Shown: in pieces, positions 32,751 through 47,175 of the stretch
Layout: each line of letters starts with the position of its first letter
Position numbering within the stretch: position 1 is the first letter of the stretch
Notes under the pieces: model-generated
The model's database searches: none
What the model saw: only the letters and a program-made list of their open reading frames with translations
Told to the model about the DNA's origin: nothing
Program-made: the position numbers and the translations under genes
Origin: Massilia sp. Root418
Lineage (GTDB): Bacteria > Pseudomonadota > Gammaproteobacteria > Burkholderiales > Burkholderiaceae_D
NCBI RefSeq assembly: GCF_001425265.1
Contig: NZ_LMEC01000025.1
Coordinates: 124,305-188,304 of the forward strand
Length of the DNA stretch: 64,000 nt
Direction of reading: 5' to 3'

Positions 32751-34706
32751 TCAGGCTTGCTGCTTGCCGTGCTGCACGCGCGGGAAGCGCAGGTTGTAGT
32801 GCAGGCCCATGTTGGGGGCGCTCACCACCTTCACCGTACCGCCCAGCGGCCCGGTCACCAGGTTGTACAGGATGTGCGCGCCCAGGCCGCTGCCGCCGGA
32901 GCCGCGCTTGGTGGTGAAGAAGGGGTCGAACAGCTGGCTCAGGGTGCCCTGGTCCATGCCGATGCCGTCGTCGCTGTAGTCGAACTGCACGTGCTCGCCC
33001 TCCACCCGGCCACGGATCTTGATCGAGCCGGACTGCCCCTCGCCGAAGCCGTGCACCAGCGAATTGACCACCATGTTGGTGACGATCTGCGACACGGCGC
33101 CCGGGAAGCTTTCCATCTGGATGTCCGGCGGGCAGTCCACCTCCACCGCGATCGGCTTGCCCTTGAGCTTGGGCTGCAGCGACAGCAGCACTTCGTCCAG
33201 GTATTTGCGCAGGTTGAAGCTGCGCACATTGTCGGAGGACTGGTCCACCGCCACCTGCTTGAAGCTGCGCACCAGCGCGGCCGCGCGCTGGGTGTTGGTG
33301 GTCATGATGCGCAGCGACTGGTCGACAATGTCGAAGAACTGGTTCAGCCCCTCCTCGTCCAGCGCCCCGCTGGCCAGGTCTTCCTTGGTCAGCTTCAGTT
33401 CCTGCACCAGGTGGCTGGTGGCGGTCACGCAGATGCCCAGCGGGGTGTTGATTTCGTGCGCCACGCCGGCCACCAGGCGGCCCAGCGAGGCCAGCTTCTC
33501 CTGCCTTACCAGCTCGCCCTGCGCCGCCTGCAGCTGCGTCAGCGCCGTGTTCAGCGCCGCGTTCTGCTCTTCCAGCGCACTCTTGGCGCGCCGGATGGCG
33601 CGGTCGGCCTGCAGGCGCGAGATCACCACCGCCACGTGGCTGGCCATGAAGGCCAGCACGTCCAGGTCGGACTGCGAATAAATCATGTCCTCGTCGTAGC
33701 TTTGCACCACCAGCACGCCGTAGGCATAGTCGTTCAGCAGGATGGGCGCCCCCATCCAGCTGGTGATCTCTTCATTGCCCAGCGGCCGCTCCACTTCGCC
33801 GGACGCCATCAGCGCCAGGTAGCCCTCGCGGTCCAGCAGTACCGGCTGGCGCTGCTTGAGGATGTAGGAGGTCATGCCCACGCCGTAGGAGAAGCTGGTG
33901 CATGGCGCCGCCGGATCCTTCTCGTCGACGAAGTACGGCACCGTGATCTCGTTGTTGCTGGGGTGGTAGAGCGCGATCAGGAAATTGCGCACCGTCAGCA
34001 CCTCGCTGATGGCCTGGTGCAGGCGCTGGTACATGGTGGTGCGGTCCCATGCGCCGCCCGACAGGCTGGCGATCTCGTACAGTGCGCGCTGCAGGTTTTC
34101 CGCGCGGCGGCGCTCGGCCACCTCGTATTCCAGCGCGGCGGTGCGTTCGTGCACGGCGCGCTCCAGGCGGTCCATGCTCTGCAGGCCTTGCAGGGCGCTG
34201 GAGACGTGGCTGGCGATCAGCTGGAACAGCGCCTGGTCTTCCTCGTTGAAGGTGTGCTGCTTGTCGTAGCTCTGGATCACCATGGCGCCCAGCACCTGCT
34301 GGTTGTGGTCCACCAGCGGGCAGCCCATCCAGTGCTCGGCGGTGGTGCCCAGCCCCCAGCTGCTGCCGTCCACGCCGCGCGAATTGTGCTCCTCGGCCGT
34401 CATGATCAGGCGCTGCCGGTTCAGGATCACCCAGGCGGTCGGCGACTGCTCCGGCGAGGCCAGCTCCACCACTTCACTGCTGTCCGGTGCCTCATCCACC
34501 TCGTCCACGAAATAGACGAAGCGCACCGAGTTGGGACGGCCCTCGTCGCTCAGCGCGACATAGAAGTTGGCCGCATACATGATGCGGCCCAGCGCCTCGT
34601 GCACCGCCTGCACGAACTCGGCAATGTCGGTGCAAGTGCTCGATTTCTGCCCGATTTCGAGCAGGATGCTTTGTACGGCTTCCAGGCGGCTGAGACGGCT
34701 TTCCAT
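32751..34706 (-). CDS. Soluble sensor histidine kinase with two GAF domains
   Basis: A 651-residue kinase without membrane segments. Two GAF domains lie in tandem (about residues 15-175 and 215-370; the repeated cores are GCPLVDHNQQVLGAMVIQSY and GAPILLNDYAYGVLVVQSYD). A coiled coil links to the dimerisation helix with the phospho-His in GRLVAGVAHEINTPLG. The ATPase has the N box (IVTNMVVNSLVHGF), G1 (DDGIGMDQG), F box (LFDPFFTTKRG) and G2 (GSGLGAHI). It should sense a cytoplasmic small molecule or redox state. The gene faces the DUF3369/HD-GYP regulator across one shared terminator, so they may form a pair. Confidence 0.93.
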   Translation of the reverse strand: MESRLSRLEAVQSILLEIGQKSSTCTDIAEFVQAVHEALGRIMYAANFYVALSDEGRPNSVRFVYFVDEVDEAPDSSEVVELASPEQSPTAWVILNRQRLIMTAEEHNSRGVDGSSWGLGTTAEHWMGCPLVDHNQQVLGAMVIQSYDKQHTFNEEDQALFQLIASHVSSALQGLQSMDRLERAVHERTAALEYEVAERRRAENLQRALYEIASLSGGAWDRTTMYQRLHQAISEVLTVRNFLIALYHPSNNEITVPYFVDEKDPAAPCTSFSYGVGMTSYILKQRQPVLLDREGYLALMASGEVERPLGNEEITSWMGAPILLNDYAYGVLVVQSYDEDMIYSQSDLDVLAFMASHVAVVISRLQADRAIRRAKSALEEQNAALNTALTQLQAAQGELVRQEKLASLGRLVAGVAHEINTPLGICVTATSHLVQELKLTKEDLASGALDEEGLNQFFDIVDQSLRIMTTNTQRAAALVRSFKQVAVDQSSDNVRSFNLRKYLDEVLLSLQPKLKGKPIAVEVDCPPDIQMESFPGAVSQIVTNMVVNSLVHGFGEGQSGSIKIRGRVEGEHVQFDYSDDGIGMDQGTLSQLFDPFFTTKRGSGGSGLGAHILYNLVTGPLGGTVKVVSAPNMGLHYNLRFPRVQHGKQQA

Positions 34707-35303: not shown

Positions 35304-36350
35304 TTACGTCTTGCGCGGAACTGTTGTCGAATTGCGCACCATCAGTTCCGGCTTCAGGCGGATTTCCATCTGCCCGTCCCCGGCCCCGCCTTCCGCCCCT
35401 TCCGCCCGCAAGCGGCGCAGCACCAGCTGGGCCGCCTGCACGCCCATGGCGTGGTGGCCGATGCGGATGGTCGTCAGCGGCGGATTCACCATGTCCACGA
35501 AGGGCATGTCGTTGTGGCCCACCACCGACACGTCCTCCGGGCAGCGCAGGCCGCGCTCGCGCAGCGCGTCGTAGCAGCCCAGCGCCAGCAGGTCGTTGCC
35601 GGCCAGGATGGCGGTGGCCTGCGGATAGCGCGCCAGCGCGCCCAGGCAGCCGGCGCGGCCTGCCTCGCGGGTGTAGGCGCTGCAGTCGAACAGCCACATG
35701 TCCTCGCGCGCCACGCCGTGCGCGGCCAGCGCCAGTTCGTAGCCCTCGCGCCGCAGGTGGCCGGTGGACAGCGTCTGCGGCCCCACCAGGTGCACGATGT
35801 GGCGGTGGCCCAGCGCCAGCAGGTGCTCCACCGCCAGCCGCATGCCCGCGTACTCGTCGTTCACCACGCTGGACACGCGGCCCCGGTCCTCGCTGCGGTT
35901 CACCGTCACCAGCGCCACGCCGGCTTCCAGGCAGTGCGTGACAATCGGATCGTCGCGCGTGGCGGTGGCCAGGATCAGGGCGTCCACCTGGCGCGCCAGC
36001 AGCTGGTCCACCACGAAGCGCTGCTGTTCCGGGTCTTCGCCGGCATTGGTCACCAGGGCCACGTAGCCGTGCTTGCGCAGCTCGTCCTCGATGCCCAGCA
36101 CGATGGGCGGAAACACCGGGTTGGTGATATCGGGCAGTATCACGCCGACGATGTTGGAGCGCCGCGTGCGCAGCGCCGCCGCCATCTTGTTGGGCCGGTA
36201 GCCGTGCCTGGCTGCCTCCTTCAGCACGCGCTGGGCCACCTCCTCGCCCACCATGTGCCGGGTTTCCGGGTCCATCACGCGGCCCACCGTGGAGGTGTGC
36301 ACGCCCAGGATTGCCGCCAGGCCCTTGAGCGTCATCTTTTTCTGCTGCAT
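35304..36350 (-). CDS. LacI-family transcriptional repressor
   Basis: A 348-residue regulator. The N-terminal HTH is MTLKGLAAILGVHTSTVGRV, followed by the hinge (RPNKMAAALRTRRSNIVGVI) and a periplasmic-binding-protein-like effector domain (PDITNPVFPPIVLGIEDEL, ILAGNDLLALGCYDALRERG, SVVGHNDMPFVDMVNPPLTT, IRIGHHAMGVQAAQLVL). It is divergent from the ring-cleavage operon; two identical palindromes of LacI type lie between them. The repressor should release DNA on binding the pathway substrate or an intermediate and probably regulates itself. A stop-side run to 35304 abuts the upstream unknown gene with 54 bp between. Confidence 0.95.
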   Translation of the reverse strand: MQQKKMTLKGLAAILGVHTSTVGRVMDPETRHMVGEEVAQRVLKEAARHGYRPNKMAAALRTRRSNIVGVILPDITNPVFPPIVLGIEDELRKHGYVALVTNAGEDPEQQRFVVDQLLARQVDALILATATRDDPIVTHCLEAGVALVTVNRSEDRGRVSSVVNDEYAGMRLAVEHLLALGHRHIVHLVGPQTLSTGHLRREGYELALAAHGVAREDMWLFDCSAYTREAGRAGCLGALARYPQATAILAGNDLLALGCYDALRERGLRCPEDVSVVGHNDMPFVDMVNPPLTTIRIGHHAMGVQAAQLVLRRLRAEGAEGGAGDGQMEIRLKPELMVRNSTTVPRKT

Positions 36351-36427: not shown

Positions 36428-36441
36428 TGCGAACGTTCGCA
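36428..36441. promoter_or_regulatory. LacI-type operator O1
   Basis: TGCGAACGTTCGCA, a perfect 14-bp palindrome with the central CG of LacI/GalR operators. It is 19 bp upstream of the -35 of the catabolic promoter and 78 bp upstream of the repressor start, so it could serve both directions. Confidence 0.85.
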
Positions 36442-36495: not shown

Positions 36496-36509
36496 TGCGA
36501 ACGTTCGCA
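36496..36509. promoter_or_regulatory. LacI-type operator O2
   Basis: An identical second copy of TGCGAACGTTCGCA, 68 bp after O1, starting eight bases past the -10 and so covering the transcription start region. Both copies have an extra A before them (AATGCG...). Confidence 0.85.
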
Positions 36510-36538: not shown

Positions 36539-37438
36539 GTGGACATGAATACCGCCAACATCATCGACGGCGAGGCATCCGTCACCGCCGTGGCGCACGC
36601 CGCCATGGCCCGCACGCCCGATCCCCGGCTGCGCCAGCTGGTGGCCGCCTTTGTCGACCACATGCACGCGCTGATACGGGAAGTGGACCTGACCGAAGCA
36701 GAATTCGACACGGTGCTCAAGTTCGTCACCGACATCGGCCAGCAGACCAACGACGTGCACAACGAGGTGGTGCTGGCGGCCGACGTGCTGGGCATCTCGA
36801 CCCTGGTCGCGCTGCGCAACAATCCGCAAAACCAGGGCCAGAGCGCGGCCGCCCTGCTCGGCCCCTTCTGGCGCGCGGCCGCGCCGCTGTGCGCCAACGG
36901 CGACTCGATTGCGCGCGGCGACACGCCCGGCACGCCCATGCACGTGTACGGCCAGGTGCGCGGCGTGGACGGCCAGCCCATCTGCGGCGCCAAGGTCGAC
37001 GTGTGGCAGGCCTCGCCGGCCGGCCTGTACGAAAACCAGGACGCGCAGCAGCCCGAGATGAACCTGCGCGGCTATTTCATGACCGGCGAGGATGGCCGCT
37101 ACAGCTTCCGCACCGTGCGGCCGGCCGGCTATCCGGTCCCCACCCATGGCGCGGTGGGCGTGCTGCTGCGGCTGCAGGAGCGGCACTGCATGCGGCCCGC
37201 GCACGTGCACTTCATGGTCTCCCACCCGCGCTGCAAGACGCTGATCACCCAGGTCTTCGCCGACGACTGCGACCACCTCGGCAGCGACGTCTCCTTCGGC
37301 GTGACCAAGCCGCTGGTGGGGCAGTTCGTGCGCCACGCGGCCGATCCGGCGGCCGGGGCCGGCGAGTACTACACCCTCAATTACGACTTCGTGCTGGAGC
37401 CGGGCGAGAGCTGCTTCCCCGAAGCGCCCATCAAATAA
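36539..37438 (+). CDS. Intradiol ring-cleavage dioxygenase (hydroxyquinol/catechol 1,2-dioxygenase family)
   Basis: A 299-residue non-haem Fe(III) dioxygenase. The N-terminal dimerisation domain (residues about 20-110, LRQLVAAFVDHMHALIREVD, EVVLAADVLGISTLV) is typical of catechol/hydroxyquinol enzymes. The catalytic domain has Tyr ligands in GLYENQ and in AGYPVP, and His ligands in the RPAHVHFMV region. It opens a catechol or hydroxyquinol ring between the hydroxyls; hydroxyquinol would give maleylacetate. Start is GTG 36539: GGAGGA at 36525-36530 is eight bases before it, against 14 for the ATG at 36545. First gene of an operon of seven. Which diol is used cannot be decided by eye. Confidence 0.88.
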   Translation: MDMNTANIIDGEASVTAVAHAAMARTPDPRLRQLVAAFVDHMHALIREVDLTEAEFDTVLKFVTDIGQQTNDVHNEVVLAADVLGISTLVALRNNPQNQGQSAAALLGPFWRAAAPLCANGDSIARGDTPGTPMHVYGQVRGVDGQPICGAKVDVWQASPAGLYENQDAQQPEMNLRGYFMTGEDGRYSFRTVRPAGYPVPTHGAVGVLLRLQERHCMRPAHVHFMVSHPRCKTLITQVFADDCDHLGSDVSFGVTKPLVGQFVRHAADPAAGAGEYYTLNYDFVLEPGESCFPEAPIK

Positions 37439-37448
37439 AGGACTACGC

Positions 37449-38261
37449 ATGCCCACATCATCCCTTCCACTCGCCGGCCAGGTGGCTGTCATCGCCGGCG
37501 GCGCGGGCGCCATCGGCTACGCCAGCGCGCAGCGCCTGGCCGCCCGGGGCGCGCGCGTCGTGCTGCTCGGCCGCGCCGGCGGCGACGCGCACGCCAAGGC
37601 CGCCTCGCTGCCCGCCGTGCCGCGCGCCGGCGGCGCAGGCTCGCCCACCAGTGCGCACGCCGCCGATGGCGCGCACTGCGCCATCGACGCCGACCTGGCC
37701 GACAGCGCCGCGCTGGCCCGCGCCGCCGCCGAGGTGCGCGAGCGCTACGGCCGCGCCGACATCCTGGTCAACTCGGCCGGCTTCACCCAGCCGGTGCCGC
37801 ACGCCGACCTGGACGCGCTGACCGACGACCTGATCGACGCCATCTTCACCGCCAACTGGCGCGCGCCGTTCGCCGCGATCCGTGCCTTCGCGCCGCTGCT
37901 GCGCGCTTCCGGCCACGGGCTGGTGGTGAACATCTCCTCCATCGCTGCCAGCACCGGCATCGGCAGCAATGTGGCCTACTGCGCCGCCAAGGCCGGCCTG
38001 GATACCATGGCCAATTCCCTGGGCCGCGCGCTGGCGCCGCAGATCCGCGTCATCAACGTCTCGCCCGGCGTGGTGGACAGCCACTTCGTGCCCGGCCGCG
38101 ACGCCGCCTTCAACGACAAGCAAGCGGCCACCACCCCGCTCAAGCGCATCGGCCAGCCGGACGACATCGCCGCCGCCGTCGAAGCCTGCGCCACCACGCT
38201 GTTGTTCGCCACCGGCAGCGTGATCCGCATCGACGGCGGCCGCCATCTCGGCGCGGCCTGA
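37449..38261 (+). CDS. SDR-family oxidoreductase
   Basis: A 270-residue short-chain dehydrogenase/reductase. The cofactor motif reads GGAGAIG at residues 17-23, in place of TG-x-x-x-G-x-G. Other landmarks are VNSAG, the catalytic Ser in NISSIAAS, Tyr and Lys in YCAAK, and VSPGVVDS. After the second strand there is an Ala/Gly/Pro-rich insert of about 30 residues (residues 40-70). C-terminal IDGGRHL is classical. It is 10 bp downstream of the dioxygenase gene and probably oxidises or reduces a hydroxyl/keto intermediate of the pathway. NAD versus NADP preference is not clear. Confidence 0.88.
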   Translation: MPTSSLPLAGQVAVIAGGAGAIGYASAQRLAARGARVVLLGRAGGDAHAKAASLPAVPRAGGAGSPTSAHAADGAHCAIDADLADSAALARAAAEVRERYGRADILVNSAGFTQPVPHADLDALTDDLIDAIFTANWRAPFAAIRAFAPLLRASGHGLVVNISSIAASTGIGSNVAYCAAKAGLDTMANSLGRALAPQIRVINVSPGVVDSHFVPGRDAAFNDKQAATTPLKRIGQPDDIAAAVEACATTLLFATGSVIRIDGGRHLGAA

Positions 38262-38270
38262 GGAGCGCAG

Positions 38271-39209
38271 ATGAACAAGACCATCATCACCTGCGCCGTC
38301 ACCGGCAACATCGTCAAGCCGGAGCAGCATCCGGACCTGCCGGTCACGCCGCGCCAGATCGCGCAAGCCTGCCTGGACGCGGCCGACGCCGGCGCCGCCG
38401 TGGTCCACATCCACGTGCGCGACCCGCGCAGCGGCCTGCCGTCCATGGAGCTGGACCACTACGCCGAAGTAATGCAGCGCATCCGCGAGCAGAACCGCGA
38501 CCTGGTGATCAACCTCACCACCGGTCCCGGCGGCCGCTTCATCCCCAGTGCGGACGACCCGCAGGTGGCCGCCCCCGGCAGCACCCTGATGCAGCCGGAA
38601 AAGCGCGTGGCCCACATCGCAGCGCTGCGCCCGGACATCGCCACGCTGGACCTCAACACCATGAATTCCGGCGCGGACGTGGTCATCAACACGCCCGCCA
38701 ACGTGCGCCGCATGGCCAGGGTGATACGCGAGGCGGGCGTGCTGCCGGAGATCGAGATCTTCGATTCGGGCGACCTGCACCTGGCGCGCGACCTGATCGC
38801 CGACGGGACCCTGGCCGGGCCGGGCCTGTTCAGCTTTGTGCTGGGCGTGCACTACGGCTTCAACGCCAGCCCGGAAACCATGGCCTATGCGCGCGGCCTG
38901 CTGCCGCCCGGCGCAATGTGGACCGGCTTCGGCATCGGCCGCCACGAATTCCCCATGGTGGCGCAAGCCTGGCTGCTGGGCGGGCATGTGCGGGTCGGCT
39001 TCGAGGACAACCTCTACATCGCCAAGGGCAAGCTGGCCAGGGACAACGCGGAACTGGTGGCGCGTGCGCGGCTGATCGTCGAATCGCTGGGCGGCGCCGT
39101 GGCCAGCGCGGCCGAAGCCCGGACCATGCTGAACCTGCACGGCGGGTTACGCGGCTGCGCCGCTAACCCGCCCTACGCAAACCAGGCAACCCAGGCAAAC
39201 GGAACTTAG
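38271..39209 (+). CDS. BKACE family beta-keto acid cleavage enzyme (DUF849)
   Basis: A 312-residue TIM-barrel enzyme of the 3-keto-5-aminohexanoate cleavage family. The Zn ligands are in VVHIHVRD and near the C-terminal side of the barrel; GPGGRFIPS, EIEIFDSGDLH, WTGFGIGRHEFPM and VRVGFEDNLY are family hallmarks. The reaction transfers the acyl part of a beta-keto acid to CoA from acetyl-CoA, giving acetoacetate and a new acyl-CoA. The natural end should be near TMLNL (39140); instead translation continues 23 residues through a REP-like palindrome to a stop at 39209. In this operon the substrate may be a ring-cleavage product such as 3-oxoadipate or maleylacetate; that is inference. Confidence 0.9.
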   Translation: MNKTIITCAVTGNIVKPEQHPDLPVTPRQIAQACLDAADAGAAVVHIHVRDPRSGLPSMELDHYAEVMQRIREQNRDLVINLTTGPGGRFIPSADDPQVAAPGSTLMQPEKRVAHIAALRPDIATLDLNTMNSGADVVINTPANVRRMARVIREAGVLPEIEIFDSGDLHLARDLIADGTLAGPGLFSFVLGVHYGFNASPETMAYARGLLPPGAMWTGFGIGRHEFPMVAQAWLLGGHVRVGFEDNLYIAKGKLARDNAELVARARLIVESLGGAVASAAEARTMLNLHGGLRGCAANPPYANQATQANGT

Positions 39210-39248
39210 ACCTGTAGGGCGGGTTAGCGGCATGCCGCGTAACCCGCC
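39141..39248. repeat. REP-like palindromic doublet overlapping the end of the BKACE gene
   Basis: Two inverted copies of the core. 39141-39176 reads GGCGGGTTACGCGG facing CCGCTAACCCGCCCTAC; 39214-39248 reads GTAGGGCGGGTTAGCGG facing CCGCGTAACCCGCC. Together they form a large imperfect palindrome. The first copy and spacer encode the last residues of the upstream gene. The same family is at 13543-13642. Confidence 0.85.
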
Positions 39249-39297
39249 AAGCGCCGCCGCAAAGCCATCAGCACCACCAACACAAAAGGAGAACCAC

Positions 39298-40293
39298 ATG
39301 AACACCGTACGCGTTACCGAAAAAGCCGCCAGCATCGACCTGCTGGCCCCCACCCTCTCCACCACCGAGCGCCCGCGTGCGCAGCCCGGCCAGTGCGTGA
39401 TCGAAGTCCACAGCGCCGGCGTGAACCCCAGCGACGTGAAGGCCGCGCTGGGCGCCATGCCGCACGCCATCTGGCCGCGCACGCCGGGCCGCGACTACGC
39501 CGGCGTGGTGATCGACGGTCCCGCCGAATGGATCGGCAAGGAAGTGTGGGGCAGCGGCGGTGAACTGGGCATCCGCCGCGACGGCACCCACGCGCGCTAC
39601 CTGGTGCTGGACACCGCCGCCGTGCGCGCCAAGCCGGCCAGCGTGCCGATGCTGGAGGCAGGCGCGGTGGGCGTGCCCTTCATCACCGCCTACGAAGGCC
39701 TGCGCCGCGCCGGCCTGCCGCAGGCGGGCGAAGTGGTGCTGGTCATGGGCGGCAACGGCAAGGTGGGCCAGGCCACCATACAGCTGGCCACCCGCGCCAG
39801 CGCCCGCGTGTTCGCGGTGGAACGCAGCAAGGAAGCGTACATCGGCCATGCCAGCGGCGCGGTTGACATGATCGCCGCAGATACCCAGGACATCGCCGCC
39901 TACGTGCGCGACAAGACCGGCGGCCACGGCGCGGACATCGTCTACAACACCGTCGGCAGCCCCTACTTCGAACAGGCCAACGCGGCGCTGGCCACCGGCG
40001 GGCGGCAGATCTTCATCTCCACCATCGAGCGCGCGGTGCCCTTCGATATCTTCGCCTTCTACCGCGGCCAGCACACCTACGTCGGCATCGATACCCTGGC
40101 GCTGGACTCGCTGGCCTGCGCCCGCATCCTCGACGCGCTGGCGCCCGGCTTCGCCGACGGCACGCTGAAGCCTTTCCCGGTACTGGCCGACACCATCTAC
40201 GCGCTCAAGGACGCCCTGCAAGGCTATCGCGCAGTGCTGGGCGGCGCGCGCGAGCGTGTGGTCTTGCAGCCGGCCCTGCAGCCCGCCCTGTAG
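39298..40293 (+). CDS. MDR-superfamily (zinc-binding alcohol dehydrogenase/quinone oxidoreductase) protein
   Basis: A 331-residue medium-chain dehydrogenase/reductase. The N-terminal GroES-like part has IEVHSAGVNPSDVKAALG and the GRDYAGVV turn. The catalytic Cys/His Zn cluster of classical alcohol dehydrogenase is not evident, so it is nearer the Zn-free quinone oxidoreductase/enoyl reductase branch. The cofactor motif is VLVMGGNGKVGQATIQLA. AAAGGAG (39287-39293) fixes the ATG at 39298. The C-terminus repeats LQPALQPAL. In this operon it could reduce a double bond or ketone of the ring-cleavage product; maleylacetate reduction is one candidate, although the usual reductase is an iron-type enzyme. 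Confidence 0.85.
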   Translation: MNTVRVTEKAASIDLLAPTLSTTERPRAQPGQCVIEVHSAGVNPSDVKAALGAMPHAIWPRTPGRDYAGVVIDGPAEWIGKEVWGSGGELGIRRDGTHARYLVLDTAAVRAKPASVPMLEAGAVGVPFITAYEGLRRAGLPQAGEVVLVMGGNGKVGQATIQLATRASARVFAVERSKEAYIGHASGAVDMIAADTQDIAAYVRDKTGGHGADIVYNTVGSPYFEQANAALATGGRQIFISTIERAVPFDIFAFYRGQHTYVGIDTLALDSLACARILDALAPGFADGTLKPFPVLADTIYALKDALQGYRAVLGGARERVVLQPALQPAL

Positions 40294-40295
40294 CC

Positions 40296-40655
40296 ATGAA
40301 CCTGACGCGCTACCACGCCGCCCCCGCCTACTATCCGCCCAACCACGAAGGCATGCACTGCCTGCGGTTGCAGGGGCACGAGGCGGGACCATCCGACACC
40401 CTGTGGCTCGGCCTGTCGCACCTGCTGCCCGGCGGCGGCACCACGCTCGACGCATCCGGCGTGGAGAAGCTGTACGTGGTGCTGGAAGGCGAAGTCACCA
40501 TCGTCACCGAAGACGGCGGACAGGTGCGCGAGCACGTGCTGCGCCAATACGATTCCGCGCGCCTGGCGCCCGGAGAAAAGAGGGCCTTGAAGAACAACAC
40601 CAATCACCCGGCCAGCATCCTGCTCGCCATGCCATACCAGTCAAACAAGTTGTAA
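40296..40655 (+). CDS. Small cupin-domain protein with non-canonical metal site
   Basis: A 119-residue single-domain cupin. The fold is visible: GLSHLLPGGGTTLDASGVEKLYVVLEGEVTIV corresponds to motif 1 and LAPGEKRALKNNTNHPAS to motif 2. The two His of motif 1 and the His of motif 2 are replaced (by Asp/Ser and Leu respectively); only the Glu before the Tyr of motif 1 stays. It is therefore probably not a metal-dependent oxygenase; a binding or isomerase role is possible. It starts 3 bp after the MDR stop and precedes the symporter by 52 bp. Confidence 0.82.
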   Translation: MNLTRYHAAPAYYPPNHEGMHCLRLQGHEAGPSDTLWLGLSHLLPGGGTTLDASGVEKLYVVLEGEVTIVTEDGGQVREHVLRQYDSARLAPGEKRALKNNTNHPASILLAMPYQSNKL

Positions 40656-40707
40656 ACAATACGCTAGACCTTGATCGAAGCACACGACGAAGTATTGGAG
40701 GAGACAC

Positions 40708-42003
40708 ATGATTACCACCAGCCCCACCGGCGCGGGCGCGCTGCCGCCTGCGGTCCGCACCCGCAAGCCCTTCTACGCCATCCTGTACGTGCAGGTGCTG
40801 TTCGCCATTGCGCTCGGCATCCTGCTCGGCCACCTGGATGCCAAGCTGGCCGTCGACATGAAGCCCCTGGGCGACGGCTTCATCAAACTGATCAAGATGC
40901 TGATCGGCCCCATCGTGTTCTGCACCGTGGTGAGCGGCATCGCCGGCATGCAGGACATCAAGAAGGTCGGCCGCATCGGTTGCAAGGCCCTGCTCTACTT
41001 CGAGCTGGTGTCCACTTTCGCGCTGTTCATCGGCATGGCGGTCGGGAACTGGGTGCGCCCCGGCGACGGCTTCAACGTCAACCCCGCCACGCTGGACGCC
41101 AAGGCTGTTACCGACTACGTGGGCAAAGCCAAAAACATGACGCCCACCGACTTCTTCCTCAACATCATCCCCAACACGGTGGCGGACGCCTTCGGCAAGG
41201 GCGACGTGCTGCAGGTGCTGCTGATTTCCCTGCTGTTCGGCTTCGCGCTGTCGGCCATGGGCAGCCGCGCCAAGCCTGTCACGGAGCTGATCGACATGGC
41301 CTCACAGGCGGTGTTCGGGGTGATCAACTTCATCATGCGCTTCGCCCCCATCGGCGCATTCGGCGCCATGGCCTTCACGGTCGGCAAATACGGCGTGGTC
41401 TCGCTCGGCCCGCTGCTCAAGCTGATCGGCACTTTTTACCTGACCTCGGCGCTGTTCGTGCTGATCGTGCTGGGACTGGTGGCGCGCGTGGCCGGCTTCA
41501 GCATCATCAAGTTCCTGGTCTACATCAAGGAAGAGATTTTCCTGGTGCTCGGCACCAGCTCGTCGGACACGGCGCTGCCCACCCTGATGGCCAAAATGGA
41601 GAGGCTGGGCTGCTCCAAACCGCTGGTAGGCCTGATCGTCCCCACCGGATACACTTTCAACACCGACGGCACCAGCATCTACATGACCATGGCGGCGCTG
41701 TTCGTGGCCCAGGCCACCAACACGGACCTGAGCCTGCTGCAGCAGCTGGCCATCTTCGGCGTGGCCATGCTGACCTCGAAAGGGGCCAGCGGCGTGCAGG
41801 GCGCCTCCTTCATCGCGCTGGTCGGCACGCTGGCCGTGGTGCCCACCATTCCGGTGGCCGGCATGGCGCTCATCCTCGGCATCGACCGCTTCATGAGCGA
41901 GGCGCGCGCACTGGTCAACATGATAGGCAACGGCGTCGCCACGGTGGTCATGGCGCGCTGGGAAGGTGAACTGGACCGCGACAAACTTGCCGCCATCCGC
42001 TAA
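40708..42003 (+). CDS. dctA: DctA-type dicarboxylate:cation symporter (DAACS family)
   Basis: A 431-residue secondary transporter with eight membrane helices and two re-entrant loops. It has the family motifs [18 protein letters not shown] (hairpin 1), [19 protein letters not shown] (helix 7) and the hairpin 2 stretch [20 protein letters not shown]. It imports C4-dicarboxylates with H+ or Na+; some DctA proteins also carry orotate or aromatic acids. GGAGGA at about 40697-40702 precedes the ATG. As part of the LacI-controlled operon it probably imports the growth substrate or a dicarboxylic breakdown product. Confidence 0.93.
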
Positions 42004-42014
42004 AGGACAATACC

Positions 42015-43133
42015 ATGAACAACACCGCACTCTCCCTCAGCCTGAGCGCCGTGGCGCTGGCCCTGGCCCCCGGCTACGCCGCCGCGCAAAGCAACGTCAC
42101 CGTCTACGGCCGCCTGAACGTGGCCATGGAACACATGGAAACCTCGGCCGCCGGCGCCGCAGCCAATGGCAGGCCCCTCAGCGTCACGCGCCTGGTCAAC
42201 AACCGCTCCGTGTTCGGCTTCAAAGGCGTGGAAGACCTGGGCGGCGGCACCAAGGCCATCTTCCAGATCGAAGGCACGCTCTCGCCCGACACCGGCGAAG
42301 GCAGCCCGGCCCAGCGCGACACGCGCGTGGGCCTGGAAGGCGCCTACGGCCAGCTGTTCCTTGGCCACTGGACCACGCCCTACAACAACAGCACCTCCGG
42401 CCTGGACCCGTTCTACCCCACCACGGCCGGCTACATGAGCATCCTGGGCAACGGCGCCGGTTCCACGGTGGACAACGTGGGCAACGTTTCGTCCTTCGAC
42501 CGCCGCCAGCAGAACAGCATCAGCTGGTATTCGCCGGCCTGGAACGGCCTCACGCTGCGCACCGCGCACGGCATCAGCGAGGAGCGCCCGGCTGGCGGCG
42601 CCAAACCCTCGCTGACCTCGCTGGCCGCCGTCTACGAGCAGGGGCCGTGGTACGCCGCGCTGGCGCTCGAGCGCCACCACGACTACCAGGGCAAGGGCCG
42701 CGACGACGACGGCAGCAAGCTGGCGGCAGCCTACCGCTTCGCCAACCGGCTGGGCGAAACCCGCCTGGCCGTCATTGCCGAGAAGCTGAAGTACGAAACC
42801 GCCACCGGCAAGCTGGAACAGACGTCTTATTATGTCTCGGCCACGCATCAGGCCGGGCCGCACGGCCTGCGCCTGGGCCTGGCCCACGCCGGCGACGGCA
42901 AGGGCGCGTCCACCCAGAAGATCGGCTACATCAAGCGCGGAGCGGACAGCGGCGCCACCCACGTCACCTTGGGCTACGACTACACGCTGTCCAGGCGCAG
43001 CAGCCTGTACGCCTACTACACCCGGCTGGACAACCAGGCCAACGCGCTGCACGACTTCGCCATCAACGCGCTGACCGTGAGCGCCGGTGCCACGCTCAAG
43101 GGCGCCGCCTTCGGCATGCGGCACGCGTTCTGA
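42015..43133 (+). CDS. Gram-negative trimeric porin
   Basis: A 372-residue outer-membrane porin of the beta-proteobacterial OmpC-like type. The signal peptide ends near residue 24 (GYAAAQ), followed by SNVTVYGRLNVAMEHM, the first strand, then SVFGFKGVEDLGGGTKAIFQ and the L3 region. It ends in GMRHAF with the terminal Phe needed for barrel assembly. It follows the symporter by 11 bp and is the last gene of the operon, giving outer-membrane entry for the substrate. Specificity unknown. Confidence 0.93.
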   Translation: MNNTALSLSLSAVALALAPGYAAAQSNVTVYGRLNVAMEHMETSAAGAAANGRPLSVTRLVNNRSVFGFKGVEDLGGGTKAIFQIEGTLSPDTGEGSPAQRDTRVGLEGAYGQLFLGHWTTPYNNSTSGLDPFYPTTAGYMSILGNGAGSTVDNVGNVSSFDRRQQNSISWYSPAWNGLTLRTAHGISEERPAGGAKPSLTSLAAVYEQGPWYAALALERHHDYQGKGRDDDGSKLAAAYRFANRLGETRLAVIAEKLKYETATGKLEQTSYYVSATHQAGPHGLRLGLAHAGDGKGASTQKIGYIKRGADSGATHVTLGYDYTLSRRSSLYAYYTRLDNQANALHDFAINALTVSAGATLKGAAFGMRHAF

Positions 43134-43154
43134 ACCCGCCTTTGTAAACGGCGA

Positions 43155-43177
43155 AGCCCGCATGATGCGGGCTTTTT
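43155..43177 (+). terminator. Rho-independent terminator of the ring-cleavage operon
   Basis: AGCCCGC-ATGAT-GCGGGCT followed by five T, 21 bp past the porin stop. Confidence 0.9.
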
Positions 43178-44109: not shown

Positions 44110-47100
44110 TCAGGCGGCCGGGGGAGCATCCTCCGGCCGTTTCGCTTCCTCCCCCGGCATTTCTGCGGGCCCGCGCTGGGCCACCTGCTCCACTCTGTTG
44201 CGCCCGCCGCGCTTGGCGCAGTACAAGGCCTTGTCGGCCCGCACCAGGACCGCGTCGCCGCTGGTGTCGGCCGGGTCCAGCGCGGCGATGCCGATGCTCA
44301 CCGTGACCGACAGCGAGCGCCCTTCCACCTCCACCGGCGTGCCGGCGATGCGCTGGCGCAGGCGCTCGGCAAAGGCGCTGGCGGCCGCCAGGTCGGCGCC
44401 CGGCAGCAGCACCGCGAACTCCTCCCCGCCCACCCGGCCCAGGGTGTCGATCTTGCGCTGGCTGTCGCGCATCAGCGCGGCCAGGTGGCGCAGCACGGCG
44501 TCGCCGGTGGCGTGGCCGTATTCGTCGTTGACGCGCTTGAAATGGTCCAGGTCCAGCATCAGCACCGCGCCCTGCTCGCCGACGTCGCGCTGCAGGCGCG
44601 CCTGCTCGTCGTCCAGGCGCGCCATGAACTCGCGCCGGTTCGGCAGGCCGGTCAGGAAATCGGTGGTGGCCAGCACCAGCAGCTCGTCGTTCATGCGCTT
44701 GCGCTCGGTGATATCCACGGTGGACACGATCACGAAGTCCAGGCTCTGCGTGTGCCCCGGCATGACCAGCAGCGTCAGCTCGTTCTGGCGCTGCACGCCG
44801 TCCAGCCGCTCGAAGCTGCTTTCGCAGGCGAACAGGTGGGCGCCCTGGGCCAGCGCCACCAGCGCCTGCGCGAAGGCCGGCATGGCGCCGGCATCGAAGT
44901 TCTGCGCCAGCGTCAGCGCCGTGGCGTCCTTGCTGCCGGGCGGGGCGCCCACCTGGGCCAGCGCGGCCGCGTTGACGTCCGTGATGCGCACCAGGCCGGC
45001 CAGCCGCGCCACCTGGCTGGGGTTGGCGCGCAGCCAGGCCGGCACATCGTCCACGCCGGAGCGCTCCAGCTCGGCCAGCGCGGCGCGCACCGCCGACCAG
45101 TCCTGCTCCCACAGCGCCACGGGCGCGTGGTCGTACAGGCTGCGGAAGCGCGCCTCGCCGGCACGCAGGGCCACCGCCGCCTGGGCCTGCTCGATGGCGA
45201 TGCCGGCCAGGCGCGACGCCTGCTCCATCAGCGCCAGCTGGGCCACGCCGGGTGCCTGGGCGGCGCGGTGGAAGATGGCGAACGTGCCCAGCACCGCGCC
45301 GTTGGCGGCGCGGATCGGCTCGGACCAGCAAGCCTGCACGCCGGCCTGGCGCGCCAGGTCGCGGTACTGCGACCACAACCCATCCTGCGCGATGTCGGGC
45401 ACGATCACGCGCCGGCCCAGCTGCACCGCCTGGCCGCAATAGCCCGCCGGCGGCTCCACCGGCTGGCCGTCGATGGCCACGCACAGGAAAGGCGGCAGGC
45501 TGGGCGCGGAGCGCACGTGCAGGTGGCGGCCGTCCTCGTCCAGCAGCAGGACGGCGCAGCGCAGTCCGGGATGGCCGTCCTCCACGCCCCGCACCACGCT
45601 GTCGAGGATGGTCTGCAGCGGCGCGCCGGTGGCCAGCAGCTCCAGCACCTGGCGCCGGGTCTGCTCGCGCCGCTCGCTCTGGGTGCGCTCGGTGATATCG
45701 CGGAACGACCACAGCCGCGCCGGCGCGCTGCCCAGCTTGAGCCCGCGCGTAAACAGTTCGATCACCCGGCCGTCGCGCAGGTGCAGCAGCTCGTGCTGCA
45801 CCTCGTTCTCGCCCTGGCGCCGCGCCACCGCCGCCAGGAACACGGACGGCTGCGCCAGCTGTTCGGCCACCTGCTGCAGCAGGATGGCGCCGTCCTGCTG
45901 CCAGTCCAGGTGCTCGGGCACATTCCACAGTTCGCGGAAGCGGCGGTTGGAGTTGAGCACGCCGCCTTCGAAATTGTCGACCAGGATGCCGTCCACGGTG
46001 GAGTCGAGGATGCTGCGCAGCACGGCCTGGCTGCGCTGCGCGCTGTCGGCCATGTCCAGCAAGCGGTCCTGGCCCTCTTTCAGCTCGGCGGTGAGCTGGC
46101 GCGCCCGGCTCAGCGCGCGGCGCGCCTTCAGGCTGCTACGGGCCAGCAGCCATGCCAGCGCCGCCAGCACCCCGCTGAGCACCACGCCGGCACCGCCGAT
46201 CAGCTGCACCTTGCCGTCGCGCTCGGCGCCCACGCCGCTGCCGGGCACGCCGCTGATGCGCACCGTCCAGCGGTGGCCGGCCAGGCTGATCTTCTGCATG
46301 GTGTGGCGCATGCCGGGCTGCGGCGGGCCGGGCCGGCTGTCGTACATGCGGCTGGCCACGTTCAGCTCCTCGCCGTCGTAGATCTCCACGTCCAGCTTGG
46401 CGGCCCGCTCACCGCCCAGCCCGGCCATCACGTCGCCCAGCCGGAACGGCGCGTACACCCAGCCGGTCAGCGCCGCGCGGCGCTGCTCGATGGTGTGCTG
46501 CGGCTGCGCATTGTGGTACACCGGCAGCACCAGCAGGAAGCCGGCCTGCTCCGGCTCGCCTTCGCGTTCATCCTCCTGCACCAGGCGCAGCTTGCCGCTC
46601 ATGGCCGGCAGGCCGGAATCGCGCGCGCGCTCCAGTGCGGCGCGCCGCACCGGCTCGGACAGCGGATCGTAGCCGAAGGCCTTCAGGTTGCTGCCGCTGA
46701 AGGGCTCGATATAGACGATGGGAGCGTACTGCGGCCTGTCGCCGGGCGGACGCACGGTGTAGTCGGGGAAGCCGTCGCGCCGCACCGCCAGCGTGTGCAC
46801 CTCGCGCTGGCCGCCGCCCACCAGGCGCATATAGCCCACGCCCTGGATGCCGGGAAAGTGCTGGTTCAGGTGCTGGCCGTCCAGGTAGCGGTGGAATTCT
46901 TCGCGGTCGACGAAATCGGAGCTGATGTACAGGCCCTGCACGCCGTACAGCACCTGCTCGTAGGTTTGCATGCGCTGCGCGATGCTGTTGACCAGTTCAC
47001 GCACGCGGAAGTCGAAATCGGCCTGCAGGTCCTGGGCCGCGTCGGCGCTGGCGTTGCGCCACAGCCACCAGGTCGAGCCCAGGCACACGCCCAGCACCAC

Positions 47101-47175
47101 GCCGGCCACAATGGCCGGGCTCAGCAAGTCCTGCAGCATCCGGCGGGGATGGGGCCGGGAGTCGGTCAGGTCCAT
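44110..47175 (-). CDS. Membrane CHASE-PAS-GAF-GGDEF diguanylate cyclase
   Basis: A 1021-residue c-di-GMP synthase. TM1 ([19 protein letters not shown]) is followed by a periplasmic CHASE domain (from [20 protein letters not shown]) and TM2 ([20 protein letters not shown]). Then come a PAS domain ([20 protein letters not shown]), GAF ([20 protein letters not shown]), a second PAS-like region and GGDEF. The active motif is RVGGEEFAV, and the inhibitory site RKID sits the usual five residues before it, so product feedback is expected. Starts at the ATG at 47175. Second CHASE c-di-GMP sensor of the window. No partner gene is adjacent. Confidence 0.93.

Follow-up and report, generated by a model that had tools for sequence, protein, structure and literature searches.

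Known BKACE routes and the Massilia operon

Beta-keto acid cleavage enzymes (BKACEs) had previously been placed at the end of aromatic degradation. The passages of PMC6449761 and PMC8963497 drawn on here proposed a BKACE in place of pcaIJF in two settings: (i) Ralstonia, with catBCD and a COG3246 gene in Ralstonia eutropha H16, and (ii) Methylobacterium, with kce in a pca cluster; a BKACE was drawn as a 3-oxoadipate route in the part of PMC12379598 used, and seven earlier BKACE groups were distinguished in that of PMC4922564, G3 being that of beta-ketoadipate and G4 taking negatively charged substrates. The present analysis was applied to a seven-gene operon of Massilia sp. Root418 (contig NZ_LMEC01000025.1), in which an intradiol dioxygenase (IDO) was joined to a BKACE; all plain coordinates below are positions within the 64,000-nt stretch of this contig that was analysed (the window).

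The operon was tentatively read, with a little less than an even chance of being right, as an accessory, locally regulated catabolic module, in which the IDO would open a hydroxyquinol-type ring, a medium-chain dehydrogenase/reductase (MDR) would reduce the product, and the BKACE would cleave the beta-keto acid. An earlier note on the window had presented such a lower route as new, which it was not: BKACE as the terminal 3-oxoadipate step had already been proposed or used (PMC6449761, PMC8963497, and PMC12379598, in the parts used here, and NF053568). What is new is the module itself, plus the possible substitution of the MDR for the iron-type maleylacetate reductase, since BKACE action on 3-oxoadipate is published. 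In the open-access literature searched, no account of an IDO–SDR–BKACE–MDR–cupin module (SDR, short-chain dehydrogenase/reductase) was found, nor any joining (i) BKACE with hydroxyquinol, (ii) maleylacetate and intradiol dioxygenase with acetoacetate and succinyl-CoA, (iii) 3-keto-5-aminohexanoate cleavage with intradiol, or (iv) DUF849 with 3-oxoadipate.

The earlier note had listed an intradiol dioxygenase with BKACE, SDR, MDR, cupin, symporter, and porin genes, free of iron-type maleylacetate reductase, CoA-transferase, and thiolase. Open reading frames (ORFs) and profile searches bore out both statements: IDO–SDR–BKACE–MDR–cupin–DctA–porin formed one plus-strand run (36539-43133) with intergenic gaps of 2 to 88 bases, given an MDR start at 39298, and none of the three missing activities was found among the seven genes. 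The divergent LacI regulator, the two palindromes, and the terminator-like hairpin listed below had been overlooked. The features were as follows:

35304..36350, minus strand: LacI-family regulator, divergent from the operon (PF00532, PF13377)
36428..36441, no strand: operator-like perfect palindrome TGCGAACGTTCGCA, copy 1
36496..36509, no strand: operator-like perfect palindrome TGCGAACGTTCGCA, copy 2, 68 bp from copy 1
36539..37438, plus strand: intradiol ring-cleavage dioxygenase, hydroxyquinol-1,2-dioxygenase-like (PF00775, PF04444)
37449..38261, plus strand: SDR oxidoreductase (PF13561, conservation)
38271..39209, plus strand: BKACE family enzyme (PF05853, 335 bits)
about 39298..40293, plus strand: MDR reductase, quinone-oxidoreductase/PIG3-like (PF08240, PF00107)
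40296..40655, plus strand: small cupin (Cupin_2, 26.5 bits, just under the cut-off)
40708..42003, plus strand: DctA-type dicarboxylate:cation symporter (PF00375; PRK01663, 639.6 bits, cut-off 513)
42015..43133, plus strand: Gram-negative porin (PF13609)
43153..43175, plus strand: terminator-like hairpin of 10 pairs with a T-rich tail, 3' of the porin gene

The MDR ORF as listed, starting from 39232, was probably too long, and a start at about 39298 was adopted. The hairpin was weak alone: chance would give 4.6 such sites in the region, and 6 were found.

Conservation of the module

An alignment of operon-linked IDOs was scanned against a genome collection of 84,980 species, giving at least 559 confirmed candidates. 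The best 80 of these plus eight of twelve plasmid loci made up the 88 loci compared below, which were selected by IDO similarity and were not a census; the Agrobacterium plasmid locus L036 was excluded from them, its IDO being 39% identical and located beside an annotated maleylacetate reductase gene. BKACE was present in 86 of the 88 close-IDO loci, so the grouping was not due to chance; the two misses (L068 and L104) both stopped at a contig end just past the IDO, and in L053 and L075 the BKACE gene lay on the opposite strand, some kilobases off. Homologues with at least 40% identity were found for SDR (84 loci), MDR (84), and cupin (81); the raw SDR count of 86 took in L033 and L037, which had no IDO.

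The module was found in numerous bacteria associated with soil and plants, among both alpha- and betaproteobacteria (including Oxalobacteraceae, Comamonadaceae, Burkholderiaceae, Rhizobiaceae, Nitrobacteraceae, and Caulobacteraceae), with eight of the observed loci on plasmids, and TctC, TRAP, or ABC systems occupied other loci where the window had DctA. Within the host genus, the operon BKACE was matched at E 1e-80 in 4 of 74 genomes, host included, and the module was thus accessory. A copy among these congeneric matches (L155, G343:C34:161413-162321) carried one in-frame TGA and may end early or be decayed. An order-level sample of 300 genomes gave IDO matches at E 1e-60 in 11 genomes including the host, and 11 matches lay in genomes other than that of the host; none of the nine stretches examined around such relatives (L022 to L030), some of them short contigs, gave a BKACE match.

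Some clusters held further genes: (i) a MaiA-like glutathione S-transferase (GST) gene, a weak match (79.6 bits, cut-off 171), in 5 of the 88 loci; (ii) in 16 loci, and in several loci directly 3' of BKACE, a hexapeptide-protein gene resembling the gamma carbonic anhydrase/CaiE/PaaY group but scoring under the cut-off of each of the three models; and (iii) amidohydrolase or alpha/beta hydrolase genes. The first is in keeping with a maleyl-type acid and the second with a CoA ester, each having been assigned from a family scan of one member. In the Noviherbaspirillum locus L047 (7476-9794), the IDO gene was preceded by genes for a maleylacetate-reductase-like iron alcohol dehydrogenase and a pyridoxal-phosphate enzyme of the cystathionine gamma-synthase family.

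Dioxygenase

Best PDB matches of the IDO were 3n9t, 8r2x, 1tmx, and 8r2w, ahead of catechol dioxygenases; we take 3n9t to be PnpC, presumably active on hydroxyquinol. The GPF and FGV segments of the IDO likewise matched hydroxyquinol dioxygenases, unlike the host's CatA-like protein, and by sequence the operon IDO is closest to hydroxyquinol dioxygenases. Residues Y164, Y198, H222, and H224, which we take to be the iron ligands (Tyr, Tyr, His, and His), were aligned and conserved in 88 of 88 loci. In a tree of 31 rows, with 20 operon IDOs picked from the 88 loci plus that of the window, the operon IDOs formed one side of a branch (97/92), and five IDOs adjacent to iron-type maleylacetate reductase-like genes stood apart.

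For intradiol cleavage to yield a beta-keto acid in one step, the ring must carry a further hydroxyl, as in a 1,2,4-triol. No cycloisomerase or enol-lactonase gene lay beside the IDO, all seven operon genes being assigned to other families. A catechol/protocatechuate beta-ketoadipate operon was rejected, because these genes were missing and the NCBIfam dioxygenase models tried (two catechol and one chlorocatechol 1,2-dioxygenase) scored far below cut-off.

BKACE

The BKACE was the host's sole DUF849 match (Pfam PF05853, 335 bits, curated cut-off 24.8), and its AlphaFold model (mean pLDDT 86.3) was a TIM barrel agreeing with solved members. The closest solved sequence was BsfD of flavophos biosynthesis (PDB 9zsc, 386 bits). 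According to the parts of PMC12871164 drawn on here, (i) the zinc ligands of the family are His, His, and Glu; (ii) a catalytic Tyr is found in all BKACE sequences (Tyr145 of CcaKce), the BsfD residue being Phe166; (iii) Arg91, on a loop inserted in BsfD, is unique to that enzyme and contacts the phosphonate; and (iv) BsfD acetylates its phosphonate keto acid and does not cleave it, for which the Tyr-to-Phe change was offered as explanation. The zinc ligands H46, H48, and E245 were invariant in 86 of 86 operon BKACEs, as were Arg89 and Phe164 at the sites of BsfD Arg91 and Phe166. An invariant Arg89 at this site is consistent with a beta-keto acid whose distal group is anionic.

The BKACEs encoded beside carnitine 3-dehydrogenase genes in L127, L128, and L129 had Phe at the Tyr site and Asp at the Arg89 site, so BsfD is not alone in having Phe, and the family may not be defined by this residue. 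The Phe of these three proteins conflicts with the claim, as worded in that part of PMC12871164, of Tyr in all BKACEs. To judge from these few sequences, Arg or Asp at site 89 may track the expected charge of the substrate, with Asp accompanying cationic carnitine-type ones.

A BKACE tree of 29 sequences, with 8 of 26 inner branches left open, placed BsfD and the L036 protein inside a branch of operon BKACEs (97/94); the nearest row to BsfD was L041, with weaker support (83/97). BsfD itself was encoded at 7989-8888 of L039 (Burkholderia stagnalis plasmid), as matched by eye to the 9zsc sequence, beside phosphoenolpyruvate mutase and lumazine synthase genes. The operon BKACEs share the Phe of BsfD, which falls within their branch, and may catalyse either cleavage or acetyl transfer.

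SDR, MDR, and cupin

The SDR had Ser, Tyr, and Lys residues that we take to be catalytic and a presumed NADP-type position 42, both assigned from familiar motifs; of the homologues aligned at this position, at least 74 in number, 63 had Arg42, which suggests NADPH and hence reduction. The MDR scored 111 bits on TIGR02824 (cut-off 296.8) and, read by eye, presumably lacked the usual zinc-ligand pattern; being of quinone-oxidoreductase type, it would group with reducers of a double bond beside a carbonyl, which would suit maleylacetate. The cupin scored 102 bits on NF050094 (cut-off 175), and what we take to be the usual HxH metal motif was absent from its alignment; its model (pLDDT 94.3) had TM1459 as nearest fold, followed by other cupins, among the best 50 of 1931 matches. 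The cupin as a diketone dioxygenase of what we take to be the Dke1 family thus found no support.

LacI regulator and operator-like sites

The LacI regulator scored 20.8 bits on the helix-turn-helix model PF00356, under its own cut-off of 27, and a homologue was divergent from and adjoining the IDO gene in 59 of the 88 loci. At up to one mismatch, a search of all 7.27 Mb of the host genome found TGCGAACGTTCGCA just twice, both times at the operon; being limited to the gap between LacI gene and operon, the palindrome makes the regulator look local and the module self-contained. Operator-like sites, one or two per gap, were found in 57 of the 59 divergent LacI/IDO intergenic regions, compared with 2 matches in 1.14 Mb of remaining sequence of those loci, the pattern being partly fitted because it was derived from the loci in which it was counted. 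A looser pattern applied to nine relatives gave a few extra sites, but its reversed control had matches in five of them too, and no wider regulon was read from it. The genome of L045 (G375) was an exception, with two further sites about 2 kb from the operon. An upstream hydroxylase under the same LacI was rejected in the host, where both operator copies lay at this operon. Two neighbours were apparently unrelated to the operon: a GAF-domain histidine kinase gene upstream (window 32751-34706) and a long ORF downstream (window 44110-47175), sensor-like by eye.

Proposed pathway

The linkage described in the earlier note was thus confirmed and was stronger than stated, and the best reading of these sequences, partly supported, is that an anionic beta-keto acid from ring cleavage would be handled by the BKACE. 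The proposed steps are as follows: (i) an anionic substrate would be taken up by way of the porin and DctA, the carboxylate transporter of this locus, and relieve LacI repression; (ii) the SDR would probably prepare the ring substrate, or the beta-keto acid from a hydroxylated precursor; (iii) the IDO would open a 1,2,4-trihydroxylated (hydroxyquinol-type) ring to maleylacetate or a similar beta-keto dicarboxylic acid, and with such a product formed directly by ring opening no cycloisomerase or lactonase would be needed; (iv) the MDR would reduce the enone double bond to give 3-oxoadipate, or act one step later on an unsaturated CoA ester; and (v) the BKACE, with its zinc and with Arg89 on the distal carboxylate, would by the chemistry of its family use acetyl-CoA to give acetoacetate and succinyl-CoA or an unsaturated analogue. 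If this scheme is true, ring carbon leaves a hydroxyquinol-type acid via BKACE, with the MDR replacing the iron-type maleylacetate reductase.

The earlier note's suggestion that the MDR or SDR could reduce maleylacetate was plausible, because the host had no convincing iron-type maleylacetate reductase: its three iron alcohol dehydrogenases were 30-35% identical to the reductase-like protein of L047, and their best NCBIfam matches (sulfoacetaldehyde reductase, ErcA, and PRK15138 alcohol dehydrogenase) were all below cut-off, no check having been made for a maleylacetate reductase model in NCBIfam. From the 80 genome loci 29 were chosen, and 28 genomes were searched (L116 was left out), 6 of which gave no iron-type reductase-like match at E 1e-30. 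In L036 (2187-8867), an SDR–BKACE pair lay about 4 kb from the dioxygenase and annotated maleylacetate reductase genes, so that in this plasmid a classical hydroxyquinol cluster may make use of BKACE as well. The proposal that BKACE acts on maleylacetate or 3-oxoadipate held in part: the zinc ligands and Arg89 would agree with it, and the 180.4 bits on NF053568 (3-oxoadipate:acetyl-CoA acetyltransferase), far under the equivalog cut-off of 350, and the Phe for Tyr would speak against it.

Several observations weigh against the proposed pathway. On the dioxygenase side, the site of the Asp in LVDAINH, which we take to be a pocket residue of hydroxyquinol dioxygenases, was Ala in the window IDO and mostly Ala, Thr, or Cys in its clade, with Asp in 4 of 88 loci (it was also missing from two of the five reductase-adjacent dioxygenases); L022 to L025 fell on the operon side of the IDO tree and had no BKACE on the stretch examined, which for L024 was just 3.8 kb; and the operon had no diol-forming hydroxylase gene. 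On the BKACE side, every one of the 86 operon enzymes had Phe at the Tyr site, and the host had a CoA-transferase pair adjoining a thiolase that passed the pcaF cut-off (C26:337228-339730). All 28 operon genomes had a transferase of the pcaJ/scoB family above cut-off, that family also covering acetoacetate transferases. An iron-type reductase-like gene was present somewhere in 22 of the 28 genomes (E 1e-30) and in the flank (up to 10 kb, some shorter) of 5 of the 88 loci, where it lay near an operon that also had the MDR gene. Finally, the SDR and the cupin are superfluous in the scheme; the earlier note had given them no place beyond a guess.

The host also had a second transferase pair on contig C1 and, on C23, another thiolase scoring above the pcaF cut-off, and two of its loci (L019 and L020) looked like cat and pca clusters, judging by dioxygenase matches and N-termini read by eye. 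The usual 3-oxoadipate branch is therefore probably encoded in the host, and the BKACE route is not forced. The idea that BKACE is an alternative to CoA-transferase and thiolase was accordingly unsupported or overstated, since the host seems to have both and BKACE may be dispensable; the genome search that went with it thus found pcaIJ/pcaF-like genes and no convincing iron-type maleylacetate reductase.

Alternative readings

Three other readings were weighed. An unlikely one would employ SDR, MDR, and cupin all in a single chain: the IDO would form a muconate-type acid, the MDR and cupin would saturate or hydrate it, the SDR would oxidise the beta-hydroxy acid, and the BKACE would cleave the resulting beta-keto acid. 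The SDR-then-BKACE logic of this chain is that of deoxyribonate and carnitine catabolism; SDR and BKACE genes adjoined without IDO too, on opposite strands, in L033 and L037, and the GntR–SDR–BKACE–lactonase cluster of L132 resembled the deoxyribonate cluster as given in the part of PMC6365646 used. The resemblance of the IDO to hydroxyquinol, not catechol, dioxygenases argues against it, as do the reductive cofactor suggested by SDR Arg42 and the cupin's lack of the usual metal ligands.

It is quite unlikely that the BKACE takes a different keto acid, from a side chain or alicyclic part of the growth substrate, with ring carbon leaving via pcaIJF elsewhere. Such a division would be in line with the pcaIJF-like genes of the host, with the amidohydrolase or alpha/beta hydrolase genes of some clusters, and with the shikimate-dehydrogenase-like genes adjoining the BKACE-less IDOs at L022:1535-2365 (one of three such stretches in L022) and L024:190-1146, which at most hint at a ring formed through dehydrogenation of an alicyclic acid. 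It is opposed by the constancy of BKACE, which was as constant as the IDO (86 of 88 loci), and by the confinement of the operator to the operon in the host, which would leave pcaIJF outside the control of this LacI.

It is improbable that the BKACE works like BsfD, C-acetylating the beta-keto acid so that decarboxylation gives a beta-diketone for another enzyme to cleave. BsfD was its closest solved relative, sat within the operon BKACE branch, and shared the Phe and Arg with all 86 enzymes; set against this are the apparent waste of such a step in catabolism, the Phe of the carnitine-linked enzymes, which suggests that Phe need not abolish cleavage, and the hexapeptide gene 3' of BKACE in several loci, which may point to a CoA-ester product. 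More specifically, and with a distinctly low probability, this BsfD-type chemistry would be catabolic, the diketone being split by an operon or host enzyme, and flavophos synthesis would have recruited an existing catabolic reaction; if so, ring carbon passes via a diketone, and neither CoA-transferase nor thiolase nor maleylacetate reductase takes part.

Comparison with known systems

The proposed hydroxyquinol-type module was compared with four described systems. The BKACE-terminated beta-ketoadipate pathway and the window operon shared ring-cleavage genes with a DUF849 enzyme and the proposed products succinyl-CoA and acetoacetate, and the Methylobacterium pca cluster, as far as the part of its report used here goes, had no pcaIJ or pcaF, as in the operon; but that pathway feeds 3-oxoadipate via a cycloisomerase and a lactonase, whose genes were missing from the operon, and the operon had an IDO of another clade plus SDR, MDR, cupin, and LacI genes. 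The hydroxyquinol 1,2-dioxygenase/maleylacetate reductase pathway had the nearest IDOs and the beta-keto product expected here, but the operon had no iron-type reductase gene (none convincing in the genome), its IDOs stood on a separate side of the tree, and the pocket Asp was mostly absent.

The deoxyribonate and carnitine clusters likewise had a dehydrogenase gene adjoining BKACE, but they had no ring-cleaving enzyme; the carnitine-linked BKACEs had Asp at the Arg89 site, and the L132 BKACE, with deoxyribonate-like neighbours, retained the Tyr and had no inserted loop. BsfD, the solved sequence nearest to the operon BKACE, had in common with it the inserted loop with Arg91 and Phe166, but BsfD sits in a biosynthetic cluster (PMC12871164, in the part used here), whereas the setting of the operon BKACE appears catabolic. 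With the same Phe and Arg in a catabolic setting, the operon BKACEs are natural comparators for BsfD and allow a direct test of the Tyr-to-Phe change as the cause of its altered chemistry.

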